From IMG/VR virus record IMGVR_UViG_3300037218_000009, positions 1-24,822 of that record: a stretch of DNA of 24,822 bases; one strand, 5' to 3'. Shown here one piece after another: positions 7,944 to 24,822 of the stretch. The notes under the pieces were generated by a model that ran no database searches, was not told where the DNA came from, and saw only the letters and a program-made list of their open reading frames with translations. Position numbers and translations under genes: made by a program. Each line of letters opens with the position of its first letter. Positions within the stretch are counted from its first letter, which is position 1. The DNA is from a virus.

Positions 7944-8981
7944 ATGGCCTATCTGACGCTTGCCGATATCGGGCGCATGACGGATCCCGACGGCAAAATC
8001 GCCGACATGGCGGAGCTGCTCTCGCAATGCAACGAAATGGTCGACGATATGCCGATGGTCGAGGCCAATGGTCTCACCACGCACGTCACCACGGTGCGCA
8101 CTGCGCTGCCCAAGGGCACCTATATCCGCTACTACCAGGGAACGCCCTACTCGAAATCCAACGCCGCACAACTCGAATTCGGCATGTCGCTGCTGCGCGA
8201 TTACTCGCAGGTCGACAAGGAGCTCTGCAAACTCGGCGGCCAGGAAAGTGTGCGGCGCGAAAAAGAGGACGTCGCGCACATGGAAGGAATTTCGCAGCAA
8301 CAGTCGACTACGCTGTGCTACGGCAATTCCTGGACAACGCCCGAGCAGTTCACCGGCTGGGCGCCGTTCTTCAACACGGTCTCGACCGCTACAGCCCAGA
8401 ACGCCGTCAACGTATTCGATTGTGGTGGAACAGGTTCCAGCAATGCCTCGATCTGGATGATCGGCTGGGGCGATTCGACTGCCTACGGCATCTACCCGAA
8501 AGGCTCCAAGGGCGGCCTCGTGTTCGAAGACAAGGGCGATATCGTGCCCGGCTTCGATGCCAGCCAGAACCGTTTCGAAGCCTACACGTCGTTGTTCCAG
8601 TGGCAGCTCGGCCTGGTGGTCGAGGATTGGCGCTATACCGTTCGCCTCTGCAACATCGACACCACGACTGCGGGACTGCTCGGCCCGACGCCCCCCGATC
8701 TCTTCGCCATCCTGGCGCGTGCGATCGTCCGGCTGCCGACCGCTGGCCGCACTGTCTCTGGCATCACCAAGACCGATGCTCCGGACAAGATGGCCCCGGC
8801 CATCCGGCTCAAGATCTATTGCGACCGTACCGTGCGGGCTTCGCTCGACATCCAAGCTATCCGCGACAAGAACGTGCTGTTGTCGCCGACGGATTATGCC
8901 GGACGGCCGATCGTCAATTGGCGCAATGTGCCGATCGGCGTGCAGGACTCGCTCCTCAATACCGAAGCGCGCGTCGTCTAA
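7944..8981 (+). CDS. major capsid protein (BPP-1 Bbp17-like)
   Basis: A 345-residue major head protein. Recognisable stretches include MAYLTLADIGRMTDPDGKI at the start, LPKGTYIRYYQGTPYSKS, a GWGDSTAYGIYPKGSKGGL segment (near residues 172-192), LVVEDWRYTVRLCNIDT, and a C-terminal IVNWRNVPIGVQDSLLNTEA. This pattern is typical of the capsid family of BPP-1-like podoviruses. By cryoEM the BPP-1 protein has an HK97-like fold with permuted topology, so the same is expected here. GGAG lies 7 bases before the ATG, and a stable hairpin precedes it. The cement gene follows after 63 bases and both end at a strong terminator. Confidence 0.85.
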   Translation: MAYLTLADIGRMTDPDGKIADMAELLSQCNEMVDDMPMVEANGLTTHVTTVRTALPKGTYIRYYQGTPYSKSNAAQLEFGMSLLRDYSQVDKELCKLGGQESVRREKEDVAHMEGISQQQSTTLCYGNSWTTPEQFTGWAPFFNTVSTATAQNAVNVFDCGGTGSSNASIWMIGWGDSTAYGIYPKGSKGGLVFEDKGDIVPGFDASQNRFEAYTSLFQWQLGLVVEDWRYTVRLCNIDTTTAGLLGPTPPDLFAILARAIVRLPTAGRTVSGITKTDAPDKMAPAIRLKIYCDRTVRASLDIQAIRDKNVLLSPTDYAGRPIVNWRNVPIGVQDSLLNTEARVV

Positions 8982-9044: not shown

Positions 9045-9590
9045 ATGGCACTCCAAGACCAAAACCTGGTGCTGTCGAGCGCGCAGGCGGTCACGGCTTC
9101 GGCTGTCTCGACCAACTGCTACGACATTCTCAACGGCGTCTTGATCGCGACCTCTGGCGGCACCTATACCGTTCCGCCGAATTCGATCATCGGCAATGCG
9201 ACCTATTTCGGCGAGGATCTCGGCCTCGGCCGCGGCGTTGGGACGCCCACGATCGAGGTTTTCTCCGGAACCGGCACGCCGGCGGTGGCAACCTCGTTGC
9301 AGGTTGCGTTGCAAGGTGCACCCGACAACGGCGGCGGCACCATCTCCGGTCTCACGTTCGTGACCTATATCGAGACCGGTGCCATCCCGCTCGCCAATAT
9401 CCTCGCCTCGATCCGGGTATGCGCTTTCGACTTGCCGCGCCGGCAATCCGGCAATGCTTTGCCGCGGTTCCTCCAACTCGATTATATCGTCGCCGGATCG
9501 AACTTCACCGGCTTGACCGTCACCGGCTACATCAACCTGGGCGGCACTTCCGCGCAGACTAGTTTGGGCCAATACGCCGCGAATTACTAA
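9045..9590 (+). CDS. capsid cement protein (Bbp16 family)
   Basis: A 181-residue beta-rich protein directly after the capsid gene. The sequence order MALQDQNLVLSSAQAVTASAVSTNCYDIL, then FGEDLGLGRG, then the IPLANI segment, then FDLPRRQSGNALPRFLQLDYIVAG, then LTVTGYINLG fits the Bbp16 cement family. In BPP-1 this protein forms trimers on the outside of the shell that stabilise it. The conserved LPRR-x-x-GNALPRFL motif is near residues 127-141. AGGA lies 11 bases before the ATG. The gene is followed within 46 bases by an intrinsic terminator. Confidence 0.8.
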   Translation: MALQDQNLVLSSAQAVTASAVSTNCYDILNGVLIATSGGTYTVPPNSIIGNATYFGEDLGLGRGVGTPTIEVFSGTGTPAVATSLQVALQGAPDNGGGTISGLTFVTYIETGAIPLANILASIRVCAFDLPRRQSGNALPRFLQLDYIVAGSNFTGLTVTGYINLGGTSAQTSLGQYAANY

Positions 9591-10568: not shown

Positions 10569-11054
10569 ATGAAACTCTTCCAGAATATCCGTTTGATGGC
10601 GGGCGCCGCATTCGTAATCGGCGTATCGATCTTCGCCGGCATCCAGGCATTTTCGGCGCCCGTCAATCCCCCTGGCCCCCCGGCTTATGGCTCAACGCCG
10701 GCGCTCGTGTCGCAATATCCTGCGGCCTCTACGCCGCTGACTGCGGTCGGGGCCGGCACCACGGGCGCGGTCGTGGGCACGCTTGCGGCGACGGCAAACG
10801 TGACCAACTATCTCTGCACCTTCGACGTGTCGGTCATCGGCGGAACGGCTGCCGTTGGACCGATCGTTGTGGCAGGCCTGATCGGCAATTCGTTCACCTA
10901 CCAGATGAGCGCATCGGCGGCCGGCAATACCATGTCGCGAAGCTTCAATCCCTGCATTCCGGCGAGTGCCGTGAATACGGCGATCACGGTAACGACCACG
11001 GCCGATGGTTCGGCGACAGCGGTCGACGTGAATATGGGCGGCTACCAGCAGTAA
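10569..11054 (+). CDS. exported hypothetical protein in phage structural region
   Basis: A 161-residue protein with an N-terminal signal peptide: basic start (MKLFQNIRLM), hydrophobic core (AGAAFVIGVSIFAGIQ) and likely cleavage after AFS near residue 29. The mature part is Thr/Ala/Val-rich and beta-like, with two Cys (in NYLCTFDV and NPCIPAS) that could form a disulfide after export. No family recognised. The ribosome site is weak (AAGG 11 bases upstream; AGGAG is 22 bases away). It may be a virion protein with a membrane-targeted N-terminus or a secreted lysogen product; the cluster of similar exported proteins downstream makes the signal look real. Confidence 0.7.
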   Translation: MKLFQNIRLMAGAAFVIGVSIFAGIQAFSAPVNPPGPPAYGSTPALVSQYPAASTPLTAVGAGTTGAVVGTLAATANVTNYLCTFDVSVIGGTAAVGPIVVAGLIGNSFTYQMSASAAGNTMSRSFNPCIPASAVNTAITVTTTADGSATAVDVNMGGYQQ

Positions 11055-11060
11055 TCGCCG

Positions 11061-11240
11061 ATGCCGCCGGTCAGCCAAGCACAACGCCGATGGGCCTGGG
11101 CGAACAAAGACAAGCCCGGCCAAGAGGGAAAGGCTGCCGCCGAATTCGCCGCCGCCGATCCTGGCGGCAAGCTCCCAGCTAAGGTTAAGAGCGGCAAACC
11201 GACCAAATCCCGCAACGAGAAGTGGTATGGCAAAAAATAA
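11061..11240 (+). CDS. 59-residue small phage protein with C-terminal WYGKK
   Basis: ATG 11061 starts 6 bases after the previous stop and reads MPPVSQAQRRWAWANKDKPG, then EFAAADPGGKLPAKV, then SRNEKWYGKK. The start SQAQRRWAWANKDKPG and the PGGKLPAKV motif are typical of small basic proteins found in many phage structural modules (S-x-AQ-x-R type). Function is not established. The end of the gene overlaps the next start by 14 bases, the next ATG lying inside the WYG codons. The C-terminal SRNEKWYGKK is repeated at the end of the next gene. Confidence 0.65.
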   Translation: MPPVSQAQRRWAWANKDKPGQEGKAAAEFAAADPGGKLPAKVKSGKPTKSRNEKWYGKK

Positions 11241-11463
11241 GAAATGGATCGCCGGCGCGATCAAGCACCCTGGGGCTCTGCACCGTGCCTTGGGCGTCCC
11301 GGAGGGCGAAAAGATTCCCGCAGCAAAGCTTGCAACCGCGCGCAACTCAAGCAACCCGCGCATCGCGCGAATGGCCGCTTTGGCGCATACGCTTAAAGGC
11401 ATGCATCACGGCGGCGAGAACAAGAGCGATAAATCCCGTTCCGACAAGTGGTACGGCGAGAAA
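11205..11463 (+). repeat. duplicated coding segment for the K-S-R-x-x-K-W-Y-G-x-K tail
   Basis: Bases 11205-11237 and 11431-11463 encode the same C-terminal tail in two adjacent genes (KSRNEKWYGKK and KSRSDKWYGEK). Both begin AAATCCCG and contain AAGTGGTA. A third related motif, KKRDWYGGKK, is encoded near 11508-11537 at the start of the following gene. Confidence 0.6.
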
Positions 11464-11469
11464 CACTAG
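11227..11469 (+). CDS. small conserved phage protein with C-terminal WYGEK
   Basis: An 80-residue basic protein reading MAKNKKWIAGAIKHPGALHR, then ALGVPEGEKIPAAKL, then ARMAALAHTLKGMHHGG, then the tail KSRSDKWYGEKH. The KWI-x-GAIKHPGALHRALGVPEGEKIP block is a recurring small module of phage virion regions, of unknown function. It overlaps the preceding gene by 14 bases and is followed after 23 bases by a third WYG-containing gene. Strongly positive charge suggests DNA or acidic-protein contact inside the head, but this is inference. Confidence 0.7.
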   Translation: MAKNKKWIAGAIKHPGALHRALGVPEGEKIPAAKLATARNSSNPRIARMAALAHTLKGMHHGGENKSDKSRSDKWYGEKH

Positions 11470-11492
11470 CGCCTCAACAACGGAGATCGATC

Positions 11493-11810
11493 ATGGCCGA
11501 GAAAAAGCGCGATTGGTACGGCGGAAAAAAGAAAGAGGACAAAGGCGAAGCCAAGGGCGGCGAGGAATCAGTGCACGAGCGCCACTCGCGCGAGCGCGGC
11601 GAAACCCATGTCCGCCACGCCAAGGCGCGTGAGGATATGAACAAGGCGCACCAGGAAGAACTCGCGCAGATGGCCGAGCGCCAATCAAACGAGATGGAAG
11701 CCGGGCCCGGCGCCGGAACGCCTGGCGGCGAGCCAGCGGCCGCGCCGATGAATGTCGCCGGAGCAGGAGCTGCGGCCGGTACGCCGGCGGCGGTCGCCGG
11801 TCAGGGCTGA
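11493..11810 (+). CDS. small charged phage protein with N-terminal DWYGGK
   Basis: A 105-residue protein; ATG 11493 has GGAG 8 bases upstream, better than the in-frame GTG at 11448. It begins MAEKKRDWYGGKKKEDKGEA, continues as a charged helix (HERHSRERGETHVRHAKAREDMNKAHQEELAQMAERQ, about residues 28-65) and ends in a Gly/Ala/Pro-rich tail. The KRDWYGGKK near the N-terminus resembles the tails of the two genes before it. No family recognised; probably a coiled-coil or disordered accessory virion protein. Confidence 0.65.
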   Translation: MAEKKRDWYGGKKKEDKGEAKGGEESVHERHSRERGETHVRHAKAREDMNKAHQEELAQMAERQSNEMEAGPGAGTPGGEPAAAPMNVAGAGAAAGTPAAVAGQG

Positions 11811-11846
11811 GAGTTTTTTCGTAGCGACAACACAAGGAGACTTCTT

Positions 11847-12182
11847 ATGCGTAGGATTTTGCTTGCGGCGGCAATCGTAGGCAGTTTTGCAGGAGCAGCG
11901 CGCGCGGACGGCAAGCTCGTGCAGTTGATGGTAACTCAAGAAGACGCGCAATTGTTGCTTAACACACTAGCCGAAAAACCCTGGAAAGAGGTTAATTCGC
12001 TGATCCAGCGGCTCGTCATACAGGTCCAGGAACAAAACCGACCGCCCGCGCCGCCGGCTACCGCTCCGGCTCCAGAGCCGCCCGCTTCGCCGTCCGCTCC
12101 CGCCGAGCCGCCGCCGGCCCCTCCCCCTGCGGCAGCAACTGCCCCAGCGGCTCCGCCAGCGGTGACCTCGCCGTCAAAATGA
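11847..12182 (+). CDS. exported small protein with Pro/Ala-rich C-terminus
   Basis: A 111-residue protein with a clear signal peptide (MRRILLAAAIVGSFAGAARA, cleavage after ARA, residue 20). A short helical region follows (residues about 21-65: LVQLMVTQEDAQLLLNTLAEK, then WKEVNSLIQRLVIQVQEQ), and then about 45 residues of Pro/Ala/Glu low complexity that could span periplasm or cell wall. AAGGAG lies 8 bases before the ATG. It precedes the coupled fibre genes by 16 bases. Function unknown; the helix pattern is reminiscent of small periplasmic proteins in this clade. Confidence 0.65.
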   Translation: MRRILLAAAIVGSFAGAARADGKLVQLMVTQEDAQLLLNTLAEKPWKEVNSLIQRLVIQVQEQNRPPAPPATAPAPEPPASPSAPAEPPPAPPPAAATAPAAPPAVTSPSK

Positions 12183-12198
12183 TCCCGGAGAAATAACG

Positions 12199-13503
12199 AT
12201 GCGCAGGTTATTGATCGTTCTCGCCGCCATCGGCATTGCCTTCGCCGCTTGGTCGAATCCCGCCTTCGCACAAGGCGGCTTCGGCAATGTGACGGGCTAT
12301 GCGATCACTACCTGCGGATCGCCGCCGGTCGCCTATAAGCCGTCGACGTCGACGCAAAACCGGCCGGGCCCCTTCACCATCGATGCGAACGGGCTTCTTT
12401 GCGTCAATGCGACGGTTAGCGTCAGCGCCAGCATTGCCGGATTTGCGCCCGGAGGCAGCTACGCCAATCTGACATCGAATGCGACGTCGCATGACGCAGC
12501 GCTTCCGACTGGCGCCGTCGATATCGCGTTCAATACCGGCACGACTGCGGTCTCGTGCGAACTCTCGGTCGGCGCCGGGACGGCGGTTGCCAGTGAGAAC
12601 GTCATCCAGCCGGGAAGTTGGCTTGCTTTCACGGTCGGCTCCAACACGCATACCGCCTGTATCAACCAAGCTGGTGACTCCGCATCGAACGTCGTGGTGT
12701 TTTCCGGGGGTACTGGTCTGCCGACCGGAGCTGGGGGCGGATCCGGTAGCGGTGGCGGCGGTGGCAACGTCAACCTCACGCAGATACTTAGTGCAGCGCC
12801 GAGCGCTACCAACCCACTATGGGTCTCCCCGGCAACAGGAGCGACATTCCCAGTCTCAGGCACGTTCTGGCAAACCACGCAACCAGTTTCTCTGACGTCC
12901 ACGACGATCACTGGAACGGTTGCGGTAACGCAGGCGTCCGCTTCAATAGCAAGCGGCGCATTCGCTTCTGGGTCTATCTCAAGCGGCGCTGTAGCATCTG
13001 GAGCCTTCGCCAGCGGCGCCATTGCCAGCGGTGCGATAGCGAGTGGGGCTATCGTAAGCGGTGGTGACGTGACCGAGGGCACTACGGCAGAGACGACCGT
13101 GTACGCTGGCTCTGGCGGCTGTACGGTCGTTGCATGTCTCAAGGGTCTTTATGCTGGTATTGTCGGCTCAATTCCGGCTGGCACGAATACAATCGGTGCA
13201 GCTATCGTTCAGGGTCAGGCCGCCGCCGCCCGGAATTTCCCCGGCTGCACGGTTGGTGCGACGACCACGAATTGCCTTGCCGCCTCGACCGCTACGCAGT
13301 TCCTGCAAATCCAGAACACATCTACCAGTGCTACCATTGCCTGCGCCTTCGGCGCCGCTGGCGTGCTCAACTCAAAAACCTCAGTGCAGCTTGCAGTCGG
13401 GCAGTCTGCTTCGTGGAACCCAAACACTGGCGGCGTTCCGACCGGGCAGCTTAATTGCATCGCAAGCGCAGGTTCAACGCCGCTCTATGTGGAGTGGCTG
13501 TAA
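12199..13503 (+). CDS. exported fibre-like protein with SGA repeats
   Basis: A 434-residue protein with signal peptide (MRRLLIVLAAIGIAFAAWSNPAFA, cleavage near residue 24) and ribosome site GGAG 8 bases before the ATG. The mature part is Gly/Ser/Thr/Val-rich and beta-like. Residues about 60-170 form one domain, a Gly-rich linker (GGGSGSGGGGGNV) lies near 178-190, and a degenerate pentapeptide repeat (SGAFA, SGSIS, SGAVA, SGAIA) follows at about 250-289. The C-terminal domain contains four Cys (GGCTVVACL, then GCTVGATTTNC, with one more near IACAFG). Such repeats are common in phage fibre shafts. The stop overlaps the next start (TAATG at 13501-13505). Tail fibre is the best call; a secreted adhesin of the lysogen is the alternative. 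Confidence 0.65.
   Translation: MRRLLIVLAAIGIAFAAWSNPAFAQGGFGNVTGYAITTCGSPPVAYKPSTSTQNRPGPFTIDANGLLCVNATVSVSASIAGFAPGGSYANLTSNATSHDAALPTGAVDIAFNTGTTAVSCELSVGAGTAVASENVIQPGSWLAFTVGSNTHTACINQAGDSASNVVVFSGGTGLPTGAGGGSGSGGGGGNVNLTQILSAAPSATNPLWVSPATGATFPVSGTFWQTTQPVSLTSTTITGTVAVTQASASIASGAFASGSISSGAVASGAFASGAIASGAIASGAIVSGGDVTEGTTAETTVYAGSGGCTVVACLKGLYAGIVGSIPAGTNTIGAAIVQGQAAAARNFPGCTVGATTTNCLAASTATQFLQIQNTSTSATIACAFGAAGVLNSKTSVQLAVGQSASWNPNTGGVPTGQLNCIASAGSTPLYVEWL
12946..13065 (+). repeat. degenerate 15-base coding repeat (SGA-x-A shaft)
   Basis: Eight imperfect units of 15 bases encode S-G-A/S-F/I/V-A/S. The protein pattern is kept while the third codon positions differ between units (AGCGGC, TCTGGG, AGCGGT, AGTGGG). 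This suggests old duplication held by protein selection rather than a recent slippage array. Confidence 0.6.
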
Positions 13504-15488
13504 TGCGTTTTGTTCTTGCGATCCTCGTCGCTCTATTTGCGCCCGCTATTGCGCAGGCTCAGATCGGTCCTGCGCCTGGTGGCGGCGGCAGCGGCATCAC
13601 GGCGCTAACTGGCGATGTGACGGCATCCGGCACGGGTTCTGTGGCGGCAACCGTCGCAGCGATTGCTGGCGTCGCCGTCGGCACACCGACCGGAACAACC
13701 AATGTGGTGTTTTCAAACTCTCCCACGTTGGTCTCGCCGACTTTGGGCAATGCAGCGGCGACCTCGTTCGGCCTATCCGGCAACATCAGCGCCGCAGCTT
13801 GGACGACCAGTGGTATCCGCTACAAGAACGCCGCGGTGACGCTGACTGACACATCGTCAAGCGGAACGGTCGCCACGGTTTACAACGACGTGTGGGGTGG
13901 CAATACCAATGCGGCGTCGAGCGCGACGACCTATACGAACGCTTTTGGCAGCTATTTCAAGGCTCCGATTGCCGGGACAAATGTTACGTTCACCAACAAA
14001 TACGCGGTAGGTGTTGACAGTCTCTTTTCGCCAGGGGTGATTACCGATCAGCAAACTACCACGACTGGCGGCCTCGCGGTAGCATTCACGAACGGCAGCG
14101 CCGTCATTACGGCAACCAACACTCTCGTCGTCAATCAACCCATATATTTCCAGAACAGCGGCGGGGCGCTACCAACTAACTTCACTTCCGGCACCGTCTA
14201 TTATGTGATTGCTACTGGGCTATCCACCAGCCAGTTTGAAGTTGCGACTTCTTCGGGGGGCACTGGTGTCCTTGCTGGTAGCGCCGGCTCTGGAACCCAG
14301 ACCGCCTCTCCAGTCACTCAAACAGACGCGGTTATCCTGCAAAATTCCACCGCAGCGACGGCCTCAATCCCAGTACAGTGGTCGCCTAGTTTGCACTTCA
14401 TTGGGCAGGGCTGGAAAACAACGGCGACGGCGGCGTCGCAGACCGTCGATTGGCTTATCACAAATCAACCGATCCAGGGAACAACCGCGCCGACAACCAA
14501 TCTTGTTATCTCCGAACAGATTAATGGTGGCGGCTATTCTACGGCGGCAAGTATCGCCGCGGCGGGGACTACCGGCACTGCCGCTGGCATCACCATTCCT
14601 TTGACAAACGCTACAGTCATAACACGTTATTTCGGCTTTAGCGGACCTGCCGTAACTGGTGGTGGCTGCGGTATCGGAACAAATACGAATGGTGCCGGCG
14701 CTCTTGATCTTATGTGTGGTGGTTCGTCGTTGCTTAATCTTAACACCGGCACGGTGCAAATTGAAACCACGTCAACAGGAGCTTTCGCCTGGGCAACCGG
14801 GTCTGATCCGAGCTCACAAAGTCCACAAACCTGGCTTACTAGCCCGGCTTCGGCGACTGTCCAATTCGGCGCGGCCAACGCTGCTTCGCCAATTAATCAA
14901 ACGGTTCAGTCGCAGGGCGTCATTGTTGGCACGACTAGCAATGGCGCTGGCGGGAATCTGTTAATACAGCCCGGTGTCTCAACCGGAAATGCAACATCAT
15001 CGCAATTAAATTTTGATACCTGGGTTGTAACCTCATCCGGTACGGCGACGCAGACGCAAACTCTAACGATGCGATTAACTAACGGCGCGGTGCTAATGCC
15101 CAGTCTGGCGGCATCCTCTGCGGCCACCACTGGCACAGTATGCTGGACGACAGGCGGCAACCTGACAGTTGATACTACGCTCGCATGCCTGGCCTCTCTT
15201 GAAGAGCTGAAAGATATTCATCAGCCGCTTAGTGGCGCGCTTGCGGAAGTCTCAAGGTTGGAACCGTTTTCGTTTTCTTGGAAAGATGGGACTCCGCAAC
15301 GAGCTGGTGACACTCAAGAGCAGGTTGGATTTGGGGCGCATCAGGTTGCCGCTGTTGATCCGCGATTGGTGTCCTATTCCGATGATGGAAAACTGCTAGG
15401 GGTTCGCTATCAGGAAATGACGGCGCTTTTGGTTCAGGCCATCAAAGAGCAGCAAGCCGAGATCGAAGAACTAAAGCGGTCGCGCTAA
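13503..15488 (+). CDS. exported tail fibre with C-terminal S74 chaperone domain
   Basis: A 661-residue protein starting at ATG 13503, which shares one base with the previous stop. A signal peptide (MRFVLAILVALFAPAIAQA, cleavage near residue 19) is followed by a fibre linker (GGGGSGITALTGDVTASGTG). A beta domain with an inserted FCCH-like module spans about residues 192-269 (TNTLVVNQPIYF to STSQFEVATSSGG), and a GQGWKTTATAASQTVDW segment follows. The C-terminal about 100 residues are a peptidase S74 intramolecular chaperone, with Ser565 and Lys570 in ASLEELKD and the later FSFSWKDGT, GFGAHQV and LGVRYQEMTALLVQAIKEQ blocks. The Ser/Lys pair needed for self-cleavage is kept, but the Arg commonly found between them is Glu. 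The S74 domain normally trimerises fibres and is then released. Confidence 0.8.
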   Translation: MRFVLAILVALFAPAIAQAQIGPAPGGGGSGITALTGDVTASGTGSVAATVAAIAGVAVGTPTGTTNVVFSNSPTLVSPTLGNAAATSFGLSGNISAAAWTTSGIRYKNAAVTLTDTSSSGTVATVYNDVWGGNTNAASSATTYTNAFGSYFKAPIAGTNVTFTNKYAVGVDSLFSPGVITDQQTTTTGGLAVAFTNGSAVITATNTLVVNQPIYFQNSGGALPTNFTSGTVYYVIATGLSTSQFEVATSSGGTGVLAGSAGSGTQTASPVTQTDAVILQNSTAATASIPVQWSPSLHFIGQGWKTTATAASQTVDWLITNQPIQGTTAPTTNLVISEQINGGGYSTAASIAAAGTTGTAAGITIPLTNATVITRYFGFSGPAVTGGGCGIGTNTNGAGALDLMCGGSSLLNLNTGTVQIETTSTGAFAWATGSDPSSQSPQTWLTSPASATVQFGAANAASPINQTVQSQGVIVGTTSNGAGGNLLIQPGVSTGNATSSQLNFDTWVVTSSGTATQTQTLTMRLTNGAVLMPSLAASSAATTGTVCWTTGGNLTVDTTLACLASLEELKDIHQPLSGALAEVSRLEPFSFSWKDGTPQRAGDTQEQVGFGAHQVAAVDPRLVSYSDDGKLLGVRYQEMTALLVQAIKEQQAEIEELKRSR

Positions 15489-15655
15489 TGCTGACATTTG
15501 CTTACACGGCTCCGAATGGATGGGTTTGCAACGCACACGATCAATCGACTCCCGCCGACGTGCTAAACCAGACATCTAACACCACGACAAGCTGCACGCT
15601 AACGGGGACAACGGTTGCATCTGATGTGATCGCATTTAATGCCATGGCGTTCTGA
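15488..15655 (+). CDS. 55-residue stand-alone fibre-tip module
   Basis: ATG 15488 shares one base with the previous stop and the TGA at 15653-15655 shares one base with the next ATG. The protein (MLTFAYTAPNGWVCNAHDQS, then TPADVLNQTSNTTTSC, then a GTTVASDVIAFNAMAF end) looks like the C-terminal domain found on many phage fibre proteins (GW-x-C-x-x-D-x-x-TP, then a final VI-x-F-x-A-x-aromatic). Here it is an independent gene with no signal peptide. It may be a tip subunit that joins the fibre, or a domain split from it. Confidence 0.65.
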   Translation: MLTFAYTAPNGWVCNAHDQSTPADVLNQTSNTTTSCTLTGTTVASDVIAFNAMAF

Positions 15656-16026
15656 TGCTCAAGGTCTCACGGCGAAAGGTTATTCTCGCGGCCCCTGCGC
15701 TTCTATTATTTAAGGCGTCGACCGCGCTGGCAGGGACCCCCCACGGTTTGCCTGCCGGGCCGTTCGACGTTTTTCTAATTTCTGGACAATCCAATGCTGT
15801 CGGCAATGGCGATGGTATCAATACCTCTGGCCTGGACGCGCCGTCGGCACAGATTTTCCAGTGGCCAGGGACCAATCCGCCAGGCGGGCCGCCAATTCAA
15901 GCCATTGATTGTTTGCTGTCACCGACAAATACCGGCCCACTCTACGCAACTGGTGTTGGTTTTGCCATGACCTTCGCGAAGAATTATCCGGCCAACGGGC
16001 TGCTTACGGAGTCTATGACCCAATGA
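15655..16026 (+). CDS. truncated SASA/SGNH esterase with Tat-like signal
   Basis: A 123-residue protein. The N-terminus MLKVSRRKVILAAPALLLF has an SRRKVIL twin-arginine motif and a cleavage site near ALA (residue 26). The next part (FDVFLISGQSNAVGNG) is block I of sialate O-acetylesterase-like SGNH hydrolases with the nucleophile Ser46. A VGFAMTFAKNYPANG stretch aligns with the next part of such enzymes, and then the frame ends. Complete family members are about twice as long and carry the catalytic Asp/His near the C-terminus; these are missing. The truncation point coincides with the start of the next gene (ATGA at 16023-16026), so this looks like a recombination-made fragment kept in a coupled operon. 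Esterase activity alone is unlikely. Confidence 0.65.
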   Translation: MLKVSRRKVILAAPALLLFKASTALAGTPHGLPAGPFDVFLISGQSNAVGNGDGINTSGLDAPSAQIFQWPGTNPPGGPPIQAIDCLLSPTNTGPLYATGVGFAMTFAKNYPANGLLTESMTQ

Positions 16027-19000
16027 AACGTCTCCACATAGCGCTGCTCACGGCGACTCTCCTCGTCGTTGGCGCTTTGCTCTGCACCGTCGGCCCGGTA
16101 CAGCGCGCCATCTCGCAGGGCGCGGTGCAGATCACGACGCTGGTCGGGACTGAGCAGATATCGCTCGACTATCCGTGCACGGTGTCGTGCTTTGTCACCA
16201 CGGCCACGCTGAAGAATTATATTAATGCCGGCGGCGGCGGTGGTGGCACAGTCACCAGCATAACCGCAGGCACAGGTCTTTCCGGCGGGGTGATCACTAA
16301 CAGCGGGACGATTGCCTGTGCCCTAGGGACGACCTCGACGATAGGTTGCCTCAAGCCAGATGGGACGACCATAACGGTATCTGCTGGCGTTATAACGGCA
16401 ACAAGCGGCGGCGGTTCCATTGGCACAATCTTCCCCCCTTATTGGGGTAGCATCAACGTCAACGACTACTACAGCGGCGTCACATGCCCGACAGGAGCCT
16501 CCGCTGACAGTTGTGCGATCCAAGCGGCGATTGATGCGGCCTCTGCGGCAAAGATTCAAACTGTATATCTGCCGCATCGGAGTTCTTGTTACGCACCGAA
16601 CGTCTCCATGTATCTCGATGTTCCCGGCAATTTGCGCGGTGGCGGTTCGGCGTGGAGTTCATCGACCACCTACTCGCAAGGGCAAATCATCAATGTCAGC
16701 GGCATCAACTATGCGTCGCTGGTTGGCAGCAACCTAAACAATCCTCCAGCATCATCGCCGTCTGACTGGCACTTGGCGGCGTACAATTCCGGGACGACTT
16801 ACGCGCTCAACGACACCACGCAATATGCCGGCGTGATGTGGATTTCGCTGGCTGGTTCCAACACCGGGAATACCCCAAGCGTTACCTCTACCTATTGGGC
16901 GCAGACGATCAGCTCAATTAACACCGCCGATTCATTCTCGATGACGCTTGCTGGCGATGTTGCGGGCAATGCCAATCATGAGGGTTTCGGCACGCAGATT
17001 TGCCCGACGTTCAACAACGGCACGGCGCTTTGGCTCGGGGCCGGTCGCGGTATGGGCACCAAGTCCATCCAGATAATCGGCCCCAACAACGCCTATCGTG
17101 GCAATCTAAACGTCAACGGTGTTGGCGTCGCCGTCGCCGAACTCGCAAGCCGAACCAAAATCATAGATACGGAAGTCGATAATTACTATAATTGTTTCTT
17201 GACCGGTCCAAATGGCGCCGATCTAGCCGACTCCAACGCTTTCATCAGGCCGGTATGGAGCAACTGCTATAACGGAATTAATTTTTACGGCATCGAAAAT
17301 TGGATCAATCAAGTTCAAGACCCTGAGTGTGACTCGACTATCTGTATAACGTCAATCGTAGCCAAGAATGTAACGGTTCTTGGCGGCAATCTTTCAGCGA
17401 CCAGCGGACGCTCCAATGCATTCACGATAGGGAGCATCTCGTCGCTCACCGCGACGAACTGCGGCAACTCAAATTACTGTTACACTTTCACTGGCGTCAT
17501 CACGTCGCCCGACATCTATATCCCGAGCGTCTATAACAGCTATATGTTTGTGACTGCCGACTTCGGCGTTGTTCCAGTGATTATGAACTCGTGGAATAGT
17601 GGCACTAACACCGGCACGTTTGAAATCTTGCCGATGTGGGGATACTTTTATTTCCAGCCAGGCACTAACGCCCTGACCATTTCCAATTTGCAGTCGGAGA
17701 TACAGGCCGTCACCACGCTCTATGCCGCCGAGCGCGTTACGACATTCTACGGGCCCGCCTTCGATGCGGTCGGCGTGCATGTCGAGAATCCGACCGCGTG
17801 CACGACATTCATTGATGCTTTTGCGGGGTTTGGCGGCGATAACGGGATCACGATTGAAAGATCGTTCTTCAATTACGATCCAAGCCTTAATCAGTATAAG
17901 CCTGCGAACAGCCCGTCTCCGGCGCAGCTTGCGCTGTTCTATTGCCAGCAAAGCTTTCCGTTTATCTTCGATGAGCCAAACGGAGCGGCTTATATAAATT
18001 TGCGTAACAATAATTTTGGGCAACTACCCAGTAGTGACCCGGTCATCATCGATCTGGCGGAGAATGGTTTTAATAATTTGGTAATTTCTGGTTCGCGCAA
18101 CACTTTGGTCAATCCGTCAATGCGCAATGTTTCTAAATACCAAGCTGTGGATGCTGGCGACATAAGCGGAGGCTACTTCGCGGCCTATACCGCGGGGCTC
18201 GGCGGTGGCGAATGGGATCAGACGCCGTTTTTGGCAACCAACTACATGGCCCAAGGGCAGTTGCAAAATCCGCAAGTGCAAATCGGCGGCAGTATGTCGC
18301 CGTTTATCGGCTGGTATCCGGCCAACTGGTTGCACCCCCGCATCACGCCGTCGCAATACTCGATACTCGAAAACATCGGCACGACGACGCTCGGCACCTA
18401 CATGCTGCCGGCCGGGGCGACGGTCTATGACATACTCAACTGCCGGAACTGCCAGAGTGCTGCGGGGCAGATCGCGGCCACATCGTCTAGCGGCGCGGTC
18501 ATCACCAACTCAGGAACAAACAATCTTGTTTCCGGGCAGCCAATTTCGTTTCAAGGGCCCACTCTTGGTGGCCTGACTGCGGGAGTTCCGTACTACGTTC
18601 TGGCTACCAGTCTCACGGCGACCACGTTCGAGGTCGCGGCGACCATCGGCGGCAGCGCCATAACGCCATCAACATCTATTTCCGCAACCGTGACGCCGTA
18701 CATCTCTGCGGTTTCCGCTCATAAAGGATTTTCCTACGGACAGGAGCTGACGACCTCGAACATTGCCACGCTGGCATGGAGCTATCTGGGCCAGTCGTTC
18801 GTCGTGAAATTGGATGCGGGAACGCTGTCGTGGATGTTTGATGGCTTGGTAGTGGATTTCAACAACGGCAGCGGCGACGTTTCGTATGTCGTGACTGGCG
18901 TCTATCCGTCGCTGGGCTACATCACCGTCCTGAACATCACCAACGATGGATTCCCGGATCTGCTCGCGGGAACCAATACTGTCACCTACAACGGCACTTC

Positions 19001-19109
19001 GATTGATGAGCCTGCCTATTCCTGGACTCAGTATCAATTCTTGCTTAAACGTGATCTTGATCCCGCATCAAATGACAACACACCTGCATTTTTGAATCAG
19101 GCCGCTTGA
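16023..19109 (+). CDS. pectate-lyase-like tail spike with inserted binding modules
   Basis: A 1028-residue protein starting at ATG 16023 (ATGA overlap). A hydrophobic N-terminus (MKRLHIALLTATLLVVGALL) is a signal peptide or anchor. A fibre linker (GGGTVTSITAGTGLSGGVI) follows. Residues about 160-206 give the start of a pectate-lyase-type beta-helix (SCAIQAAIDAASAAKIQTVYLP). It is interrupted at about 210-297 by two repeats of about 44 residues (STTYSQGQIINVSGINYASL and GTTYALNDTTQYAGVMWISL, each ending in a DW or YW) that resemble CBM5/12-like binding modules. The beta-helix resumes to about 700. A FCCH-like module lies at about 816-891. The protein likely binds and perhaps cleaves a surface polysaccharide. 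No catalytic residues could be assigned. Confidence 0.75.
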   Translation: MKRLHIALLTATLLVVGALLCTVGPVQRAISQGAVQITTLVGTEQISLDYPCTVSCFVTTATLKNYINAGGGGGGTVTSITAGTGLSGGVITNSGTIACALGTTSTIGCLKPDGTTITVSAGVITATSGGGSIGTIFPPYWGSINVNDYYSGVTCPTGASADSCAIQAAIDAASAAKIQTVYLPHRSSCYAPNVSMYLDVPGNLRGGGSAWSSSTTYSQGQIINVSGINYASLVGSNLNNPPASSPSDWHLAAYNSGTTYALNDTTQYAGVMWISLAGSNTGNTPSVTSTYWAQTISSINTADSFSMTLAGDVAGNANHEGFGTQICPTFNNGTALWLGAGRGMGTKSIQIIGPNNAYRGNLNVNGVGVAVAELASRTKIIDTEVDNYYNCFLTGPNGADLADSNAFIRPVWSNCYNGINFYGIENWINQVQDPECDSTICITSIVAKNVTVLGGNLSATSGRSNAFTIGSISSLTATNCGNSNYCYTFTGVITSPDIYIPSVYNSYMFVTADFGVVPVIMNSWNSGTNTGTFEILPMWGYFYFQPGTNALTISNLQSEIQAVTTLYAAERVTTFYGPAFDAVGVHVENPTACTTFIDAFAGFGGDNGITIERSFFNYDPSLNQYKPANSPSPAQLALFYCQQSFPFIFDEPNGAAYINLRNNNFGQLPSSDPVIIDLAENGFNNLVISGSRNTLVNPSMRNVSKYQAVDAGDISGGYFAAYTAGLGGGEWDQTPFLATNYMAQGQLQNPQVQIGGSMSPFIGWYPANWLHPRITPSQYSILENIGTTTLGTYMLPAGATVYDILNCRNCQSAAGQIAATSSSGAVITNSGTNNLVSGQPISFQGPTLGGLTAGVPYYVLATSLTATTFEVAATIGGSAITPSTSISATVTPYISAVSAHKGFSYGQELTTSNIATLAWSYLGQSFVVKLDAGTLSWMFDGLVVDFNNGSGDVSYVVTGVYPSLGYITVLNITNDGFPDLLAGTNTVTYNGTSIDEPAYSWTQYQFLLKRDLDPASNDNTPAFLNQAA

Positions 19110-21577
19110 TGATCCGACTTCTCTCCATTCTCCTGTTCTGCCTGCTATGGGTTTTACCAGCAGGCGCAGTTTCGTTCGAGTCCATCATGGTCAGAGGAAC
19201 CATGACGGATACTATTTCATGGAATCATGGCAGCGTGGGAACGCCCACCGTACCGGCGCAAATTCAGCTCAGCGTAGGCACAGGCGATTCTGGAGTAGGC
19301 AACGGCAATCAACCGATCTGCATCAATTGGTTCAAATGTTCTCAATATAATTTGAACAGCAACTCGCCTACCATTCTCGATGCCAATCAATATCCAAACG
19401 CCGGAACCATGACGGATACCATGTCATGGAACCCCATCAAGCAGACGCCGCTTTCTTACTACAGCGGGAATTGGGAAGAACTCTGGACGGGCGGTCCATT
19501 TCAGATCAACAACGACAGCGGCATTACGATTGTCAGCGATCCGCAGAGTTGCAGCAACGGTGATGGCAGTGGCAACGCTGGTCACTTCAAGGGCACCAAC
19601 TGCGATGTGATTTTTAGCTACGGGTCTAATCCTGGCGGGAACGCAGTTATTCCAATCGGAACGTGGGGGACAACCACGCCAGTTTCCGGCGCTGCCTTGT
19701 TCCGTAGCTCAGACAAGACGGCCTATCTCGCGGGGCAAGTATTCTTGCCGGAATACATCAGCATTTTGAAATCTCTGAATCCTCTGGCTATTCGCACGAT
19801 GGGAATGAGCTTCCCGGTGCAAAATGCGGAGAATGTGGCATCTTGGTCCGACCGCCTCCCCATGACGGCGGCGAGTTGGGGCGCTCAGAACTGGATACCG
19901 AACGATTGGGCCGGGGCGGATACGACGCATACCGACAATTACGTTCTGGGTTCTTACACGAACATGCCGGGGACGTGGACGGACAGCGAACTGTTTCAGG
20001 CGAGCTTTACCCACGGCAGTAATGCTGGCCTGACGATAACGGGGGCAGCGAATGACTCCGGCAACAGTGAAGTCAGGCTGACAGTTTCCTCGACTTCGAC
20101 GCTCACGACCAATCAGAATGTATTGGTAAGCAACTGCCAATCGAACTCGCCGCCAACAGTTTATGAAATCACCGTCGAGAGCGGCACAACTCTTGATTTG
20201 CAGGGCACCACTTATTCGTCAGCATGGGCTAACTGTCCCGCTAGCGGCGGCGGTAACGGACTTCTAACAACCACGACAGTCAATGTCGGAAGCCGGGGGG
20301 CCAAGTTTGTATTACCGATTGCAGGTCTGTTTGGCAATCCCGGCATCGCCAATGGAGACAACGGAACATTCATCTACGACGCCTTGCTGGGAATTTTAGT
20401 CTATAGCAGCGGGGGCATCTCCGCCGGCCTGCCGCCTGAGACGCATATAGCAATGGCGAATGAAAGCGGGCGGCCACTTTGGTTTAATTTCCACCCTTAC
20501 TGGCACGCTGCGGACGTGACTTCGTTTATCGACTATGCCAATGCAAACCTGACGACCGATCTTTATGTTGAATTTGACAATGAGAATTGGAATTATAATT
20601 ATCAGGGCCAGGTATGGCAGCAGCGCGGGGAAGCAATAGGATTACCGTCGGGTTCAAATACTGCTTCTTACAGCTACATCGGTCTGCAAATTCGTGTGCT
20701 TTTCGGTGCCGCCACTGCCGCATGGACTGGCGGGTCAGCGCACCTGCATCGTGTTAACGCCGCGCAGGAAAGCGGTAGTCCGGCGCTTTTCGCCTCTTTG
20801 CAGTTCTCCGGCAGCAACCTTTGCGGGACGAGTTGCGGCAACTCGACTTATCAGTCGAAGATCGGGACTGATTACAACGCCTCTCCTAATCGCCCCCAGG
20901 ACTATAGTGATGCCTATGCTATTGCGACTTACTTCAATGGCGCGCAATCAGGAGGTAACCAATTTAATGCGTTATCGCAGATTACCGGAACCTGCAACGG
21001 TACGACTTGTACGGGGCTGATTGCGGCGGCATCCTGCTATGCGGCGCCGTCTAGCTCAACATGCGGGAGCGGAGGCACGTCAGCACTAGCTTTGCAGTTC
21101 ATGGATACGGACAATCGCAGTGGACAACTCATCGGTGAAACTGGATGCACCTACCCCACCAACGTCACCAATCTATTTACTGTTAGTTGCTCACAGTCCG
21201 CCATCTGGGGAGGTGCGGGAGGATGGAATGCTCAGGCATTGGCGGACGGTAAGAAGCTGCTGGCCTATGAGGGTGGCTTTTCAAACTATGGACCGACTGC
21301 TGCTTATCTCACATCGCTCGGTGACGGCAACGCCACGGCCGACGCAACGAATATCAATAATCTGGAAGTAGCTTATCGCTCCAGTTCGCTGTTCTATGCC
21401 ACCTACATCTATTGGAACACGATTTGGTTCAGCAATTCGCAGGTTGCAGGCAATTCAAATCTGAGCATACAGAACGGTCCGACCGTCGGCATCGGCGCGC
21501 AGAATTGGGGAATGGTCACGTCCATCATGCCGCTTGCGACCTGGCAGAACTATAATGCGTTTGAGGCGATCAACTAA
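19109..21577 (+). CDS. exported glycoside-hydrolase-like protein
   Basis: An 822-residue protein whose ATG shares one base with the previous stop (TGATG). Signal peptide MIRLLSILLFCLLWVLPAGA, cleavage near residue 20. The N-terminal part (about 25-300) is Gly/Asn/Ser-rich with two GTMTDT-x-SWN copies. A FCCH-like module follows at about 304-384. From about 430 onward a TIM-barrel-like enzyme domain is seen: RPLWFNFHPYWHAADV, then LYVEFDNENWNYNYQ with candidate acid/base Glu492, and LLAYEGGFSNYG with candidate nucleophile Glu721. An N-E pair and a later E on a strand fit clan GH-A hydrolases. Substrate unknown; a capsular or exopolysaccharide is likely given the spike next to it. It could act on the virion or as a secreted enzyme of the lysogen. 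Confidence 0.65.
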   Translation: MIRLLSILLFCLLWVLPAGAVSFESIMVRGTMTDTISWNHGSVGTPTVPAQIQLSVGTGDSGVGNGNQPICINWFKCSQYNLNSNSPTILDANQYPNAGTMTDTMSWNPIKQTPLSYYSGNWEELWTGGPFQINNDSGITIVSDPQSCSNGDGSGNAGHFKGTNCDVIFSYGSNPGGNAVIPIGTWGTTTPVSGAALFRSSDKTAYLAGQVFLPEYISILKSLNPLAIRTMGMSFPVQNAENVASWSDRLPMTAASWGAQNWIPNDWAGADTTHTDNYVLGSYTNMPGTWTDSELFQASFTHGSNAGLTITGAANDSGNSEVRLTVSSTSTLTTNQNVLVSNCQSNSPPTVYEITVESGTTLDLQGTTYSSAWANCPASGGGNGLLTTTTVNVGSRGAKFVLPIAGLFGNPGIANGDNGTFIYDALLGILVYSSGGISAGLPPETHIAMANESGRPLWFNFHPYWHAADVTSFIDYANANLTTDLYVEFDNENWNYNYQGQVWQQRGEAIGLPSGSNTASYSYIGLQIRVLFGAATAAWTGGSAHLHRVNAAQESGSPALFASLQFSGSNLCGTSCGNSTYQSKIGTDYNASPNRPQDYSDAYAIATYFNGAQSGGNQFNALSQITGTCNGTTCTGLIAAASCYAAPSSSTCGSGGTSALALQFMDTDNRSGQLIGETGCTYPTNVTNLFTVSCSQSAIWGGAGGWNAQALADGKKLLAYEGGFSNYGPTAAYLTSLGDGNATADATNINNLEVAYRSSSLFYATYIYWNTIWFSNSQVAGNSNLSIQNGPTVGIGAQNWGMVTSIMPLATWQNYNAFEAIN
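19196..19431 (+). repeat. pair of 29-base direct repeats, in frame
   Basis: GGAACCATGACGGATAC at 19196 and the same at 19403 begin two 29-base copies (19196-19224 and 19403-19431) that differ at only two positions. They are 207 bases apart, a multiple of three. Each encodes GTMTDT-I/M-SWN in the glycoside-hydrolase-like gene, suggesting a recent internal duplication or a repeated structural turn. Confidence 0.75.
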
Positions 21578-21650
21578 GATTTGTGTCATTCACGGCCTGT
21601 GCGTTAAACATCTCAGTGCGGTCACCCGTCCGCAATAAAGGAGAAGAGCG

Positions 21651-22058
21651 ATGGCTCACTTCACCGCCATGGTCGACATGGCAAAGACGCCGGAAGACGT
21701 GAAAGAGGAGGTGGCGATGCCTGTGCCCGCGAGCGCCGCCAAGCCATCCGTCCCGGCTTATTCATACGGGCTCTGCCTCTCGCTTGAAGATGACGAGCTG
21801 GAGAAACTCGGTATCGACGAGGAGCTGCCAACTGTAGGCGACATCATCCACCTCTGCGCTCTTGCCAAGGTCACGTCCGCCAGCCAGAGCGAGCGCGAGA
21901 TGAGCGACGGCAGCAAGAAACAATGCCGCCGCATCGAGTTGCAGATCACGCATCTGGCGACCGAGGACGAAGAAGACGAGAACGAAGGCGCCAAGGCGCA
22001 GATGGCTGCCGACGAAGGCCGCCGCAAGCGTTTCTACGGAACTCCAGAGGCGGCGTAA
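21651..22058 (+). CDS. capsid staple-like protein
   Basis: A 135-residue protein with AAGGAG 9 bases before the ATG. The core is residues about 38-105: PAYSYGLCLSLEDDELEKLG, then LPTVGDIIHLCALAKVTSAS, then CRRIELQITHLATEDEED. It follows the pattern of small podovirus head proteins annotated as capsid staple (epsilon15-type), which clamp neighbouring capsid subunits. The acidic EDEEDENE stretch and the final RRKRFYGTP tail also fit. It is placed after the fibre module, away from the capsid genes. The 73 bases before it hold no clear terminator or promoter. The family call is from pattern memory. Confidence 0.6.
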   Translation: MAHFTAMVDMAKTPEDVKEEVAMPVPASAAKPSVPAYSYGLCLSLEDDELEKLGIDEELPTVGDIIHLCALAKVTSASQSEREMSDGSKKQCRRIELQITHLATEDEEDENEGAKAQMAADEGRRKRFYGTPEAA

Positions 22059-22966: not shown

Positions 22967-23773
22967 GTGACTTCAAACATCGACCTTTGCAACCTGGCTC
23001 TCGATCAGATCGTTGCCCGAGCATCCATCTCGGGTATTGGTCCGCCGACGCCGCCGAACAGTCTCGCCGCCCAGGTTGCAAGCCGCACCTATCAGCTCCA
23101 GGCCGATGCCGTGTTTCGCGCGGCGCATTGGAATTCAGCGCGCAACCAACAAACGCTGACGCTGCTCAAGGCGGCGATCGGCACGCCGGAGAATCCATCC
23201 GGTGCATTGCCAATGCCGCCAGTCCCCTGGCGCTACGAATACGCCTATCCGCCAGATTGCCTGCTCGTGCGCTTTGTCATTCCGATGCCGGATCTACCGG
23301 CCGCCGGGCAAGCGCCGCTCATGACCAATGTCGGCATCAATTTTATTTCCTTCGTGAACACCTCGATGCCGTTCGTGCCGGCGATCGATACCGACGCCAA
23401 CGGCAACCAGGTCAAGGTGATCCTGACGCAAGCGCGCAAGGCGCAGGCGGTCTATACGGCGCGGATCCTCAATGTCGATCTCTGGGACTCGTCGCTGCAG
23501 AATGCCGTTATCGGCGCGCTCGCCGCTTGGTTTGCGGCACCAATCACCGGGGATTCAAAAAAACAAGCACAAGCGATTCAGATTGCTAGTGGATTGATTC
23601 AGGCCGCACGCATCTCCGATGGCAATGAAGGAATTACGAGCACTGATTTTGTGCCCGACTGGATGCAGATTCGCGATAGCGGCGGCGGTTGGGGGGCTGG
23701 CTTCCAGATCCCGAATGGCGGTTTCATGGGCGCTTGGTCGTCCTGGGGCGGTCCGGATGGGATCAGCTACTGA
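22967..23773 (+). CDS. tail adaptor, T7 gp11-like (tail tubular A)
   Basis: A 268-residue protein. The N-terminal pattern TSNIDLCNLALDQIVARASI, then AAQVASRTYQLQADAVFRAAHWNSARNQQTL (ending in a conserved W-N-x-A segment) is that of podovirus gp11-type adaptors, which sit between portal and nozzle. WRYEYAYPPDCLLVRFV and AVYTARILNVDLWDSSLQNAVIGALAAWFAAPITGD also occur in such proteins. GTG 22967 preceded by GGGGG is preferred over TTG 22949. The C-terminus is Gly/Trp-rich. The upstream gap contains GCGGCGC/GCGCCGC arms (22921-22927 with 22942-22948) of uncertain meaning. Confidence 0.7.
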   Translation: MTSNIDLCNLALDQIVARASISGIGPPTPPNSLAAQVASRTYQLQADAVFRAAHWNSARNQQTLTLLKAAIGTPENPSGALPMPPVPWRYEYAYPPDCLLVRFVIPMPDLPAAGQAPLMTNVGINFISFVNTSMPFVPAIDTDANGNQVKVILTQARKAQAVYTARILNVDLWDSSLQNAVIGALAAWFAAPITGDSKKQAQAIQIASGLIQAARISDGNEGITSTDFVPDWMQIRDSGGGWGAGFQIPNGGFMGAWSSWGGPDGISY

Positions 23774-24265: not shown

Positions 24266-24822
24266 ATGACCCTGACCGTAATCAAACCGTCGTTCAGCGC
24301 CGGCGAATTAAGTCCCAGTCTTTGGGGCCGCGTTGATTACAGCGGCTGGGCTATAGGCGCGTCCGTTTTTCGGAACATGTTTGTGAGTTACAGGGGTCCG
24401 GCATCATCGCGTGCGGGACTCGCGTTCGTCGGTCAATCGCTAACGCCGGCGTCGCCCTCGAGCATTCCGCCGAAGATCGTCCGCTTTCAATTCAATATCT
24501 TCCAGAGCTACATTCTGGAATTCGGCGTCGACGCGCTCAATCGCCCCTATATGCGGGTGATCGTCAACGGCGCCTTTGTGACCGAGGCGCCGACGGCGGT
24601 CTCGGCGGTCTCGCTCACTAATCCGTCCATCGTCACGGATCCGGCAAACGGCTATGCGACGGCTGATTGGCTTTATGCCTCTGGCTTTGGCGGCACGACC
24701 GAATTCAACGGCCGCACCCTGGTCGCGCGCCTGGTCGCCGGCAACAACATCACGCTCGGCGATACGTTTGGGAATCCGATCAACGCGCTTGCCTATGGCG
24801 CCTATACCGGCGGCGGTACGCT
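24266..24822 (+). CDS. tail nozzle, T7 gp12-like, with FCCH module; 3' end outside window
   Basis: The first 185 codons of a larger gene, cut by the window edge. ATG 24266 begins 6 bases after the previous stop. The start (IKPSFSAGELSPSLWGRVDYSGWAIG) and RNMFVSYRGPASSRAGLAFV, followed by IVRFQFNIFQSYILEFG, are the standard opening of podovirus nozzle proteins (tail tubular protein B family). Residues about 115-185 (VSLTNPSIVTDPANGYATAD, then ASGFGGTTEFNGRTLVARLV) form an FCCH-type insert, common in these proteins. Full-length relatives are several hundred residues longer. Confidence 0.8.
   Translation, partial: MTLTVIKPSFSAGELSPSLWGRVDYSGWAIGASVFRNMFVSYRGPASSRAGLAFVGQSLTPASPSSIPPKIVRFQFNIFQSYILEFGVDALNRPYMRVIVNGAFVTEAPTAVSAVSLTNPSIVTDPANGYATADWLYASGFGGTTEFNGRTLVARLVAGNNITLGDTFGNPINALAYGAYTGGGT

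Follow-up and report, generated by a model that had tools for sequence, protein, structure and literature searches.

How would the appendages of a tailed phage come to carry export signals? The question is posed by a 24.8-kb virus record, IMG/VR IMGVR_UViG_3300037218_000009 (G000; all 24,822 nucleotides are referred to here as the window), which bears the structural module of a short-tailed phage and, within it, a cassette of seven genes (S1 to S7; Table 1) whose products begin with predicted signal peptides. The appendages of tailed phages are held to fold and assemble in the cytoplasm. Our analysis of the window and its relatives suggests that, in a clade of short-tailed phages from soil, fibre- and spike-like proteins with cleavable signals and paired cysteines fold outside the cytoplasm and join the particle at cell burst. 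With a probability of about 0.6, the cassette would encode the surface appendages of such a phage (fibres, a tailspike-like protein, small spike-like proteins and glycan-active modules), made as preproteins, exported, and docked at lysis.

In order to evaluate the N-termini, we used a purpose-built signal-peptide scorer, trained on a set of 37 established signals of E. coli and recovering 28/37 of them in leave-one-out testing. The seven cassette genes are all present at the starts given in Table 1, and all of them pass, as opposed to none of the 18 other genes in the window; the view of the initial annotation that these seven begin with signal peptides or hydrophobic segments is thus borne out. 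The background pass rate, taken over arbitrary open start codons of the window, is 2.1%. Among 136 annotated coding sequences of epsilon15, BPP-1, BcepC6B, RapA and phage AF, used as a control, three were positive, namely the transmembrane segment of a spanin and two fibre-like proteins whose N-termini resemble true signals. False positives do exist, as two BcepIL02 tail fibres with Ala-rich N-termini also passed. Each of the seven genes has a Sec-type signal, scored on the positive n-region, uncharged hydrophobic core and cleavage site of a Sec/signal peptidase I substrate, and most have an AXA site, with cleavage predicted, for example, between MRRLLIVLAAIGIAFAAWSNPAFA and QGG in S3 and between MRFVLAILVALFAPAIAQA and QIG in S4. 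The Tat-like signal that had been assigned to one gene is found in S5, where an intact signal carries VSRRKVIL (twin-arginine-like SRRKVIL) and makes Tat export putative, yet this gene is a truncated esterase.

Relatives were gathered as 94 loci by scanning IMG/VR with tail tubular protein A and the capsid protein. Signal-bearing genes are concentrated in the interval between the genes for these two proteins, where they account for 97 of 608 genes vs 10 of 831 outside it (Fisher p ~1e-27). Across a de-duplicated family set (n = 79), Ala precedes the predicted cut (position −1) in 66 cases and either Gln or Ala follows it (position +1) in 66, with an exact AXA in 57; the Cys at +1 of a lipobox, expected of a lipoprotein processed by signal peptidase II, occurs once.

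Exported proteins of many Gram-negative bacteria prefer even numbers of cysteines owing to disulfide pairing (Dutton et al., 2008, as used in PMC7678975). In the set de-duplicated at 40% identity, even counts outnumber odd ones by 52 to 4 (p 5.5e-12) among signal-bearing proteins whose mature part reaches 150 aa or more, and the other proteins divide 92 to 115. Cysteine content is 1.68% in the mature signal-bearing proteins vs 0.78% in the rest. In 21 proteins one cysteine lies within the predicted signal; 19 of these have an even mature part and hence an odd full-length count. S6 and S7 are of this kind, going from 19 to 18 and from 15 to 14 cysteines upon removal of the signal, and the only odd mature count in the cassette belongs to the truncated S5. 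The parity emerges only upon signal removal and is independent of the scorer; it indicates, indirectly, that the signals are probably cleaved and the mature parts oxidised to disulfide-bonded forms. We regard the export of cassette-type proteins as strongly supported. A phage-encoded oxidase of the DsbA family was also considered and found no support, there being no DsbA homologue in 13 relatives.

The relatives also suggest a destination for the exported proteins. In pieces of five complete or near-complete relatives, a second group of fibre-like proteins with signals is clustered behind the internal virion proteins, and in complete relatives the main tail fibre at this position consists of a signal of 20–33 aa followed directly by a docking domain. 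Residue 27 of one such fibre (L112, 10052-12076, minus strand) pairs in alignment with residue 2 of the SPN1S tailspike, which is of the epsilon15 type, and likewise with residue 2 of the tail fibre of Pelagibacter phage HTVC024P and of the depolymerase Dpo31 of Cobetia phage Carin1. A profile of the domain matches the solved Dpo31 from residue 2 (E 4e-19), and the N-terminal virion-docking domain of epsilon15-type tailspikes and Dpo31 (PDB 28lx, 28mg, 8ck1) is homologous to that of the relatives' fibre from this residue onward. The signal therefore occupies the exact place of the initiator Met of a canonical fibre; this clade further differs from Dpo31 and the epsilon15 tailspike in the paired cysteines of the fibre body. 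The same docking domain begins at Met, without a signal, in L134, L139, L141-L144, L147 and L148, and in most of these the codons between the upstream stop and the fibre Met are too few to encode one. The signal-less fibre of L134 has 11 cysteines, and the adjacent signal-bearing spike has 10. A small LxGxE protein is similarly found without a signal (MALSGSE or MSLVGNE) in L056, L077, L083, L086, L094 and L096, and as signal plus domain in the clade of the window.

Between close relatives, omega is 0.06–0.07 in the fibre signal and 0.03–0.06 in the docking domain. By this measure both are under purifying selection, and therefore export and docking both appear to be kept. The initial annotation had offered, as one of two readings, an undescribed assembly of fibres at or across the membrane. 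An undescribed assembly of virion fibres that involves the membrane is now supported by the placement of the relatives' signal directly before a virion-docking tailspike domain, both of them selected; nothing shows assembly at or across the membrane itself, and docking at lysis would be the simpler version.

In the route we propose, appendage preproteins would pass through Sec in the late phase and be cleaved, and the mature appendages would acquire their fold and their disulfides in the periplasm; heads filled with DNA but devoid of appendages would meanwhile assemble in the cytoplasm. Holin-endolysin lysis would mix the two compartments and allow the mature appendages to dock on the virion by their N-terminal domains. 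P22 tailspikes are able to attach to finished particles in vitro, and late docking is therefore chemically plausible. Export may also separate glycan-cutting enzymes from substrates in the cytoplasm and give them early access, ahead of lysis, to host glycans in the periplasm; disulfide-stabilised fibres are another possible gain. Docking on the virion after export appears probable on this evidence. We also lean towards a fuller scheme of two-compartment building, in which only lysis brings the heads filled in the cytoplasm together with a complete receptor-binding appendage set, exported and matured in the periplasm, and in which the route is toggled by gain or loss of a signal exactly at the first residue of the fibre.

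Inspection of the cassette shows proteins of several kinds. The C-terminal S74 chaperone of S4 scores 29.1 bits against a gathering cut-off of 22, and the same C-terminus matches a 'putative tail fiber protein' (PDB 8jov; E 4e-8). The conserved N-terminal domain of S3 (xTGxxxxxCGxxP..LC) is common to divergent exported proteins of L034, L049, L050 and L052; neither S3 nor S6 has a match in the phage collection. The SASA match of S5 lies below the cut-off of 24.8 bits and spans 74 of 226 profile positions, short of a full catalytic domain. S5 is truncated at its junction and overlap with S6, in a manner resembling module swapping within the cassette. S7 has glycoside-hydrolase-like motifs (FDNENWN, AYEGG), spotted by eye only. 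It gave no Pfam match and no significant PDB sequence match, its sole match in the viral collection is the same phage, and an AlphaFold2 model of S7 alone (pLDDT 31) has no usable fold; weak matches were obtained in 9 of 398 bacterial genomes, mostly within the region of the glycosidase-like motifs. The S7 start at 19109 competes with an internal ATG at 19202, the choice of the gene caller; the signal speaks for the former, as does the overlap of this start with the stop of the upstream gene, and no homologue decides. Between S4 and S5, an open reading frame of 55 aa without a signal (MLTFAYTAPNGWVCNAHDQS..., 15488-15655) overlaps the S4 stop and is possibly a leftover of another appendage gene.

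Table 1. Features of the window and signal-bearing fibre-like genes of cultured phages. Signals, mature cysteine counts and functions are predictions.
Feature	Positions	Strand	Mature Cys	Basis
Portal (head-to-tail connector), no signal	2030..3898	+		PF12236, E 3e-107
Major capsid protein, left border of appendage interval	7944..8981	+		~42% to Pseudomonas podophage capsid proteins, 38% to BPP-1 Bbp17
Bbp16-like capsid cement protein, no signal	9045..9590	+		PF21190, 25.4 bits, slightly below cut-off 27.1
S1, 161-aa preprotein, signal ~1-29	10569..11054	+	2	Scorer; 62% identical L023 homologue in same place
S2, 111-aa preprotein, signal ~1-19, Pro/Ala-rich tail	11847..12182	+	0	Scorer
S3, 434-aa preprotein, signal 1-24	12199..13503	+	10	Scorer, homologue comparison
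S4, 661-aa preprotein, signal 1-19, fibre body, C-terminal Peptidase_S74 intramolecular chaperone	13503..15488	+	4	Pfam PF13884
S5, 123-aa remnant of SASA-type carbohydrate esterase, twin-arginine-like signal	15655..16026	+	1	SASA, 17.5 bits
S6, 1028-aa preprotein, signal ~1-28, LVGTE N-terminal domain, CBM5/12-like module, tailspike-like body	16023..19109	+	18	
S7, 822-aa preprotein, signal 1-20	19109..21577	+	14	
Gp10-like coat protein, no signal	21651..22058	+		PF21628, 39.6 bits
Tail tubular protein A, no signal, right border of appendage interval	22967..23773	+		phrog_394 tail protein
BcepC6B gp19 (L172), single signal-bearing fibre-like gene	20959-22032			
PBR31 orf035 (L176), single signal-bearing fibre-like gene	2932-3741			
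AF gp25 (L174), single signal-bearing fibre-like gene	24808-25830			

Several observations weigh against docking of the exported proteins on the virion. S7 and S5 resemble enzymes rather than fibres, and two relatives in which a docking-domain fibre carries a signal (L123, L135) have odd cysteine counts. For one exported small protein of the LxGxE kind, taken from a relative, the predicted fold (pLDDT 75) most resembles the Pa223 capsid spike and the N-terminus of CBA120 TSP4, which would favour docking, but this match is weak (E 4e-3 and weaker) and serves as a lead. Finally, the window stops short of the locus that carries the docking-domain fibre in relatives, and the case for docking of S1 to S7 themselves therefore rests on the fibre chaperone of S4, the conserved N-terminus of S6 and synteny.

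The main rival to docking at lysis, for some or all of the proteins, is that they are free secreted effectors that never join the virion and instead digest or cap host glycans, either nascent surface polysaccharide in the periplasm or lysis debris. Progeny would then not be trapped and superinfection would be blocked, which in lysogens would amount to conversion. The glycosidase-like motifs of S7, the esterase remnant of S5 and the carbohydrate-binding-like (CBM-like) module of S6 fit such a role, as do an integrase match in 5 of 19 relatives and an acyltransferase-like gene among the exported spikes of one relative (G004). A precedent is WceF of Pantoea stewartii, a Tat-exported protein with a tailspike fold that serves as a glycan enzyme (PMC7949094), although, unlike the cassette genes, wceF is a bacterial gene in a polysaccharide cluster and its product is not part of a virion. 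Against free effectors speak the virion-docking domain that the relatives' exported fibre retains under purifying selection, the occurrence of the same domain without a signal in close relatives, and the position of the cassette within the structural operon, flanked by capsid and tail tubular genes; we consider them less likely than docking. The other reading of the initial annotation, a glycan-modifying set secreted by the lysogen, may hold for the glycosidase-like gene and the esterase remnant but is less favoured overall because the cassette lies in a late structural operon and few relatives have an integrase match.

It is improbable that the signals are simply inefficient, with a cytoplasmic fraction assembling conventionally and the exported fraction a by-product or decoy. 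Such leakage would accommodate the finding that close relatives have one and the same fibre, some with and some without a signal, but the even-cysteine bias of the mature parts, even when a cysteine lies in the signal, points to the cleaved and oxidised form as the one under selection. A further view, to which the scorer's false positives on Ala-rich N-termini and the unsettled S7 start lend something, is that fibres assembled in the cytoplasm keep the N-terminal segments as hydrophobic anchors that are never cleaved, or that the segments are artefacts of wrongly placed gene starts. It is highly improbable given the AXA sites, the parity of the cysteines, the signal's low omega and the exactness with which it abuts the docking domain.

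The connector, capsid, cement and tubular proteins of the window follow a conserved order, with the cement match below cut-off, and mark the window as a fragment of an epsilon15/BPP-1-like podovirus. A second tail tubular protein starts at 24266. The gene order is that of epsilon15, BPP-1 and BcepC6B, except that 11 kb separate the capsid block from tubular protein A; most of this interval is occupied by the seven cassette genes, which places them in the late structural operon. The structural modules of these three phages and of RapA and AF have portal, capsid, cement-like, tubular and internal proteins in the same order but, unlike the window, lack a cassette of several genes in the capsid-to-tubular interval. 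At the left end (positions 1-2029), where relatives carry terminase genes, the window has the end of an ISXO2/IS1595-family transposase (PF12762), followed by a SocA/Panacea antitoxin on the minus strand (PF13274, 973-1518) with a small neighbour at 636-965. Contig L016, whose capsid protein is identical to that of the window, starts at window position 1744; an IS insertion, a decayed prophage or an assembly join could each account for this end.

In a capsid-protein tree, the clade that includes the window has strong support and comprises 27 rows, 23 of which have signal-bearing interval genes vs 6 of 24 outside, some rows labelled as lacking them being near-threshold and probably missed signals. 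A single origin of the signals on this tree was considered and is unsupported, as eight changes are required. Of the five tyrosine-integrase matches among 19 relatives, four exceed the curated cut-off (L033/G007, L072/G015, L009/G001 and L023/G005), and part of the family is, judged by these genes, temperate. Despite the integrases, the genome collection contained one relative only, a distant one. Our host searches yielded, in that collection, a 48% capsid match in a beta-proteobacterial metagenome-assembled genome as the sole match; in 398 Pseudomonadota genomes, distant matches only; and, with the terminal ABC-transporter gene of an isolate-derived relative, merely ~53% matches to alphaproteobacterial plasmids. 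The capsid-to-tubular interval of some relatives also holds non-structural cargo (L023 13465-15557, L089 13031-15275, L028 14181-14900), by eye radical-SAM/B12-like and sugar-metabolism-like, and resembles an insertion hotspot. The acyltransferase-like gene of G004 (L112 6488-7600), by eye an OafA-like membrane acyltransferase, lies on the opposite strand amid exported spikes and might allow surface modification by the lysogen.

Some exported or membrane-targeted phage proteins are already known. Filamentous phage coat proteins are virion proteins with signal peptides that assemble after membrane targeting; those phages are, however, membrane-extruded and carry single-stranded DNA, whereas here a tailed double-stranded DNA phage would fill its heads in the cytoplasm. 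Signal-peptide (SP) endolysins, such as Lys44 of phage fOg44, and signal-anchor-release (SAR) endolysins are known exported proteins of tailed phages that, as proposed for the cassette, use host Sec before lysis (PMC6116005). Endolysins are lysis enzymes, whereas the cassette proteins are appendage-like, and profile scans of S1 to S7 detected no lysozyme, amidase or transglycosylase family. Closer parallels occur in cultured phages: BcepC6B gp19, orf035 of Xanthomonas phage PBR31 and gp25 of Pseudomonas phage AF each encode a fibre-like protein that clearly starts with a signal peptide and whose mature cysteines are even in number. Each of these phages has one such gene, in contrast to the whole appendage set here, and the signals are unremarked in the annotations examined. 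No report of tailed-phage fibres routed through Sec was found in the full-text literature searched, a body that mostly excludes subscription papers. Pending protein evidence, the cassette would represent known appendage types on a new route.

If docking at lysis is correct, the periplasm would be an assembly compartment for tailed phages. Disulfide-stabilised fibres would be normal phage parts, the host Sec and Dsb systems would be infectivity factors, and the fibre-gene signal peptides of BcepC6B, PBR31 and AF would be functional features. These cultured phages offer experimental entry points at which the question is directly testable.

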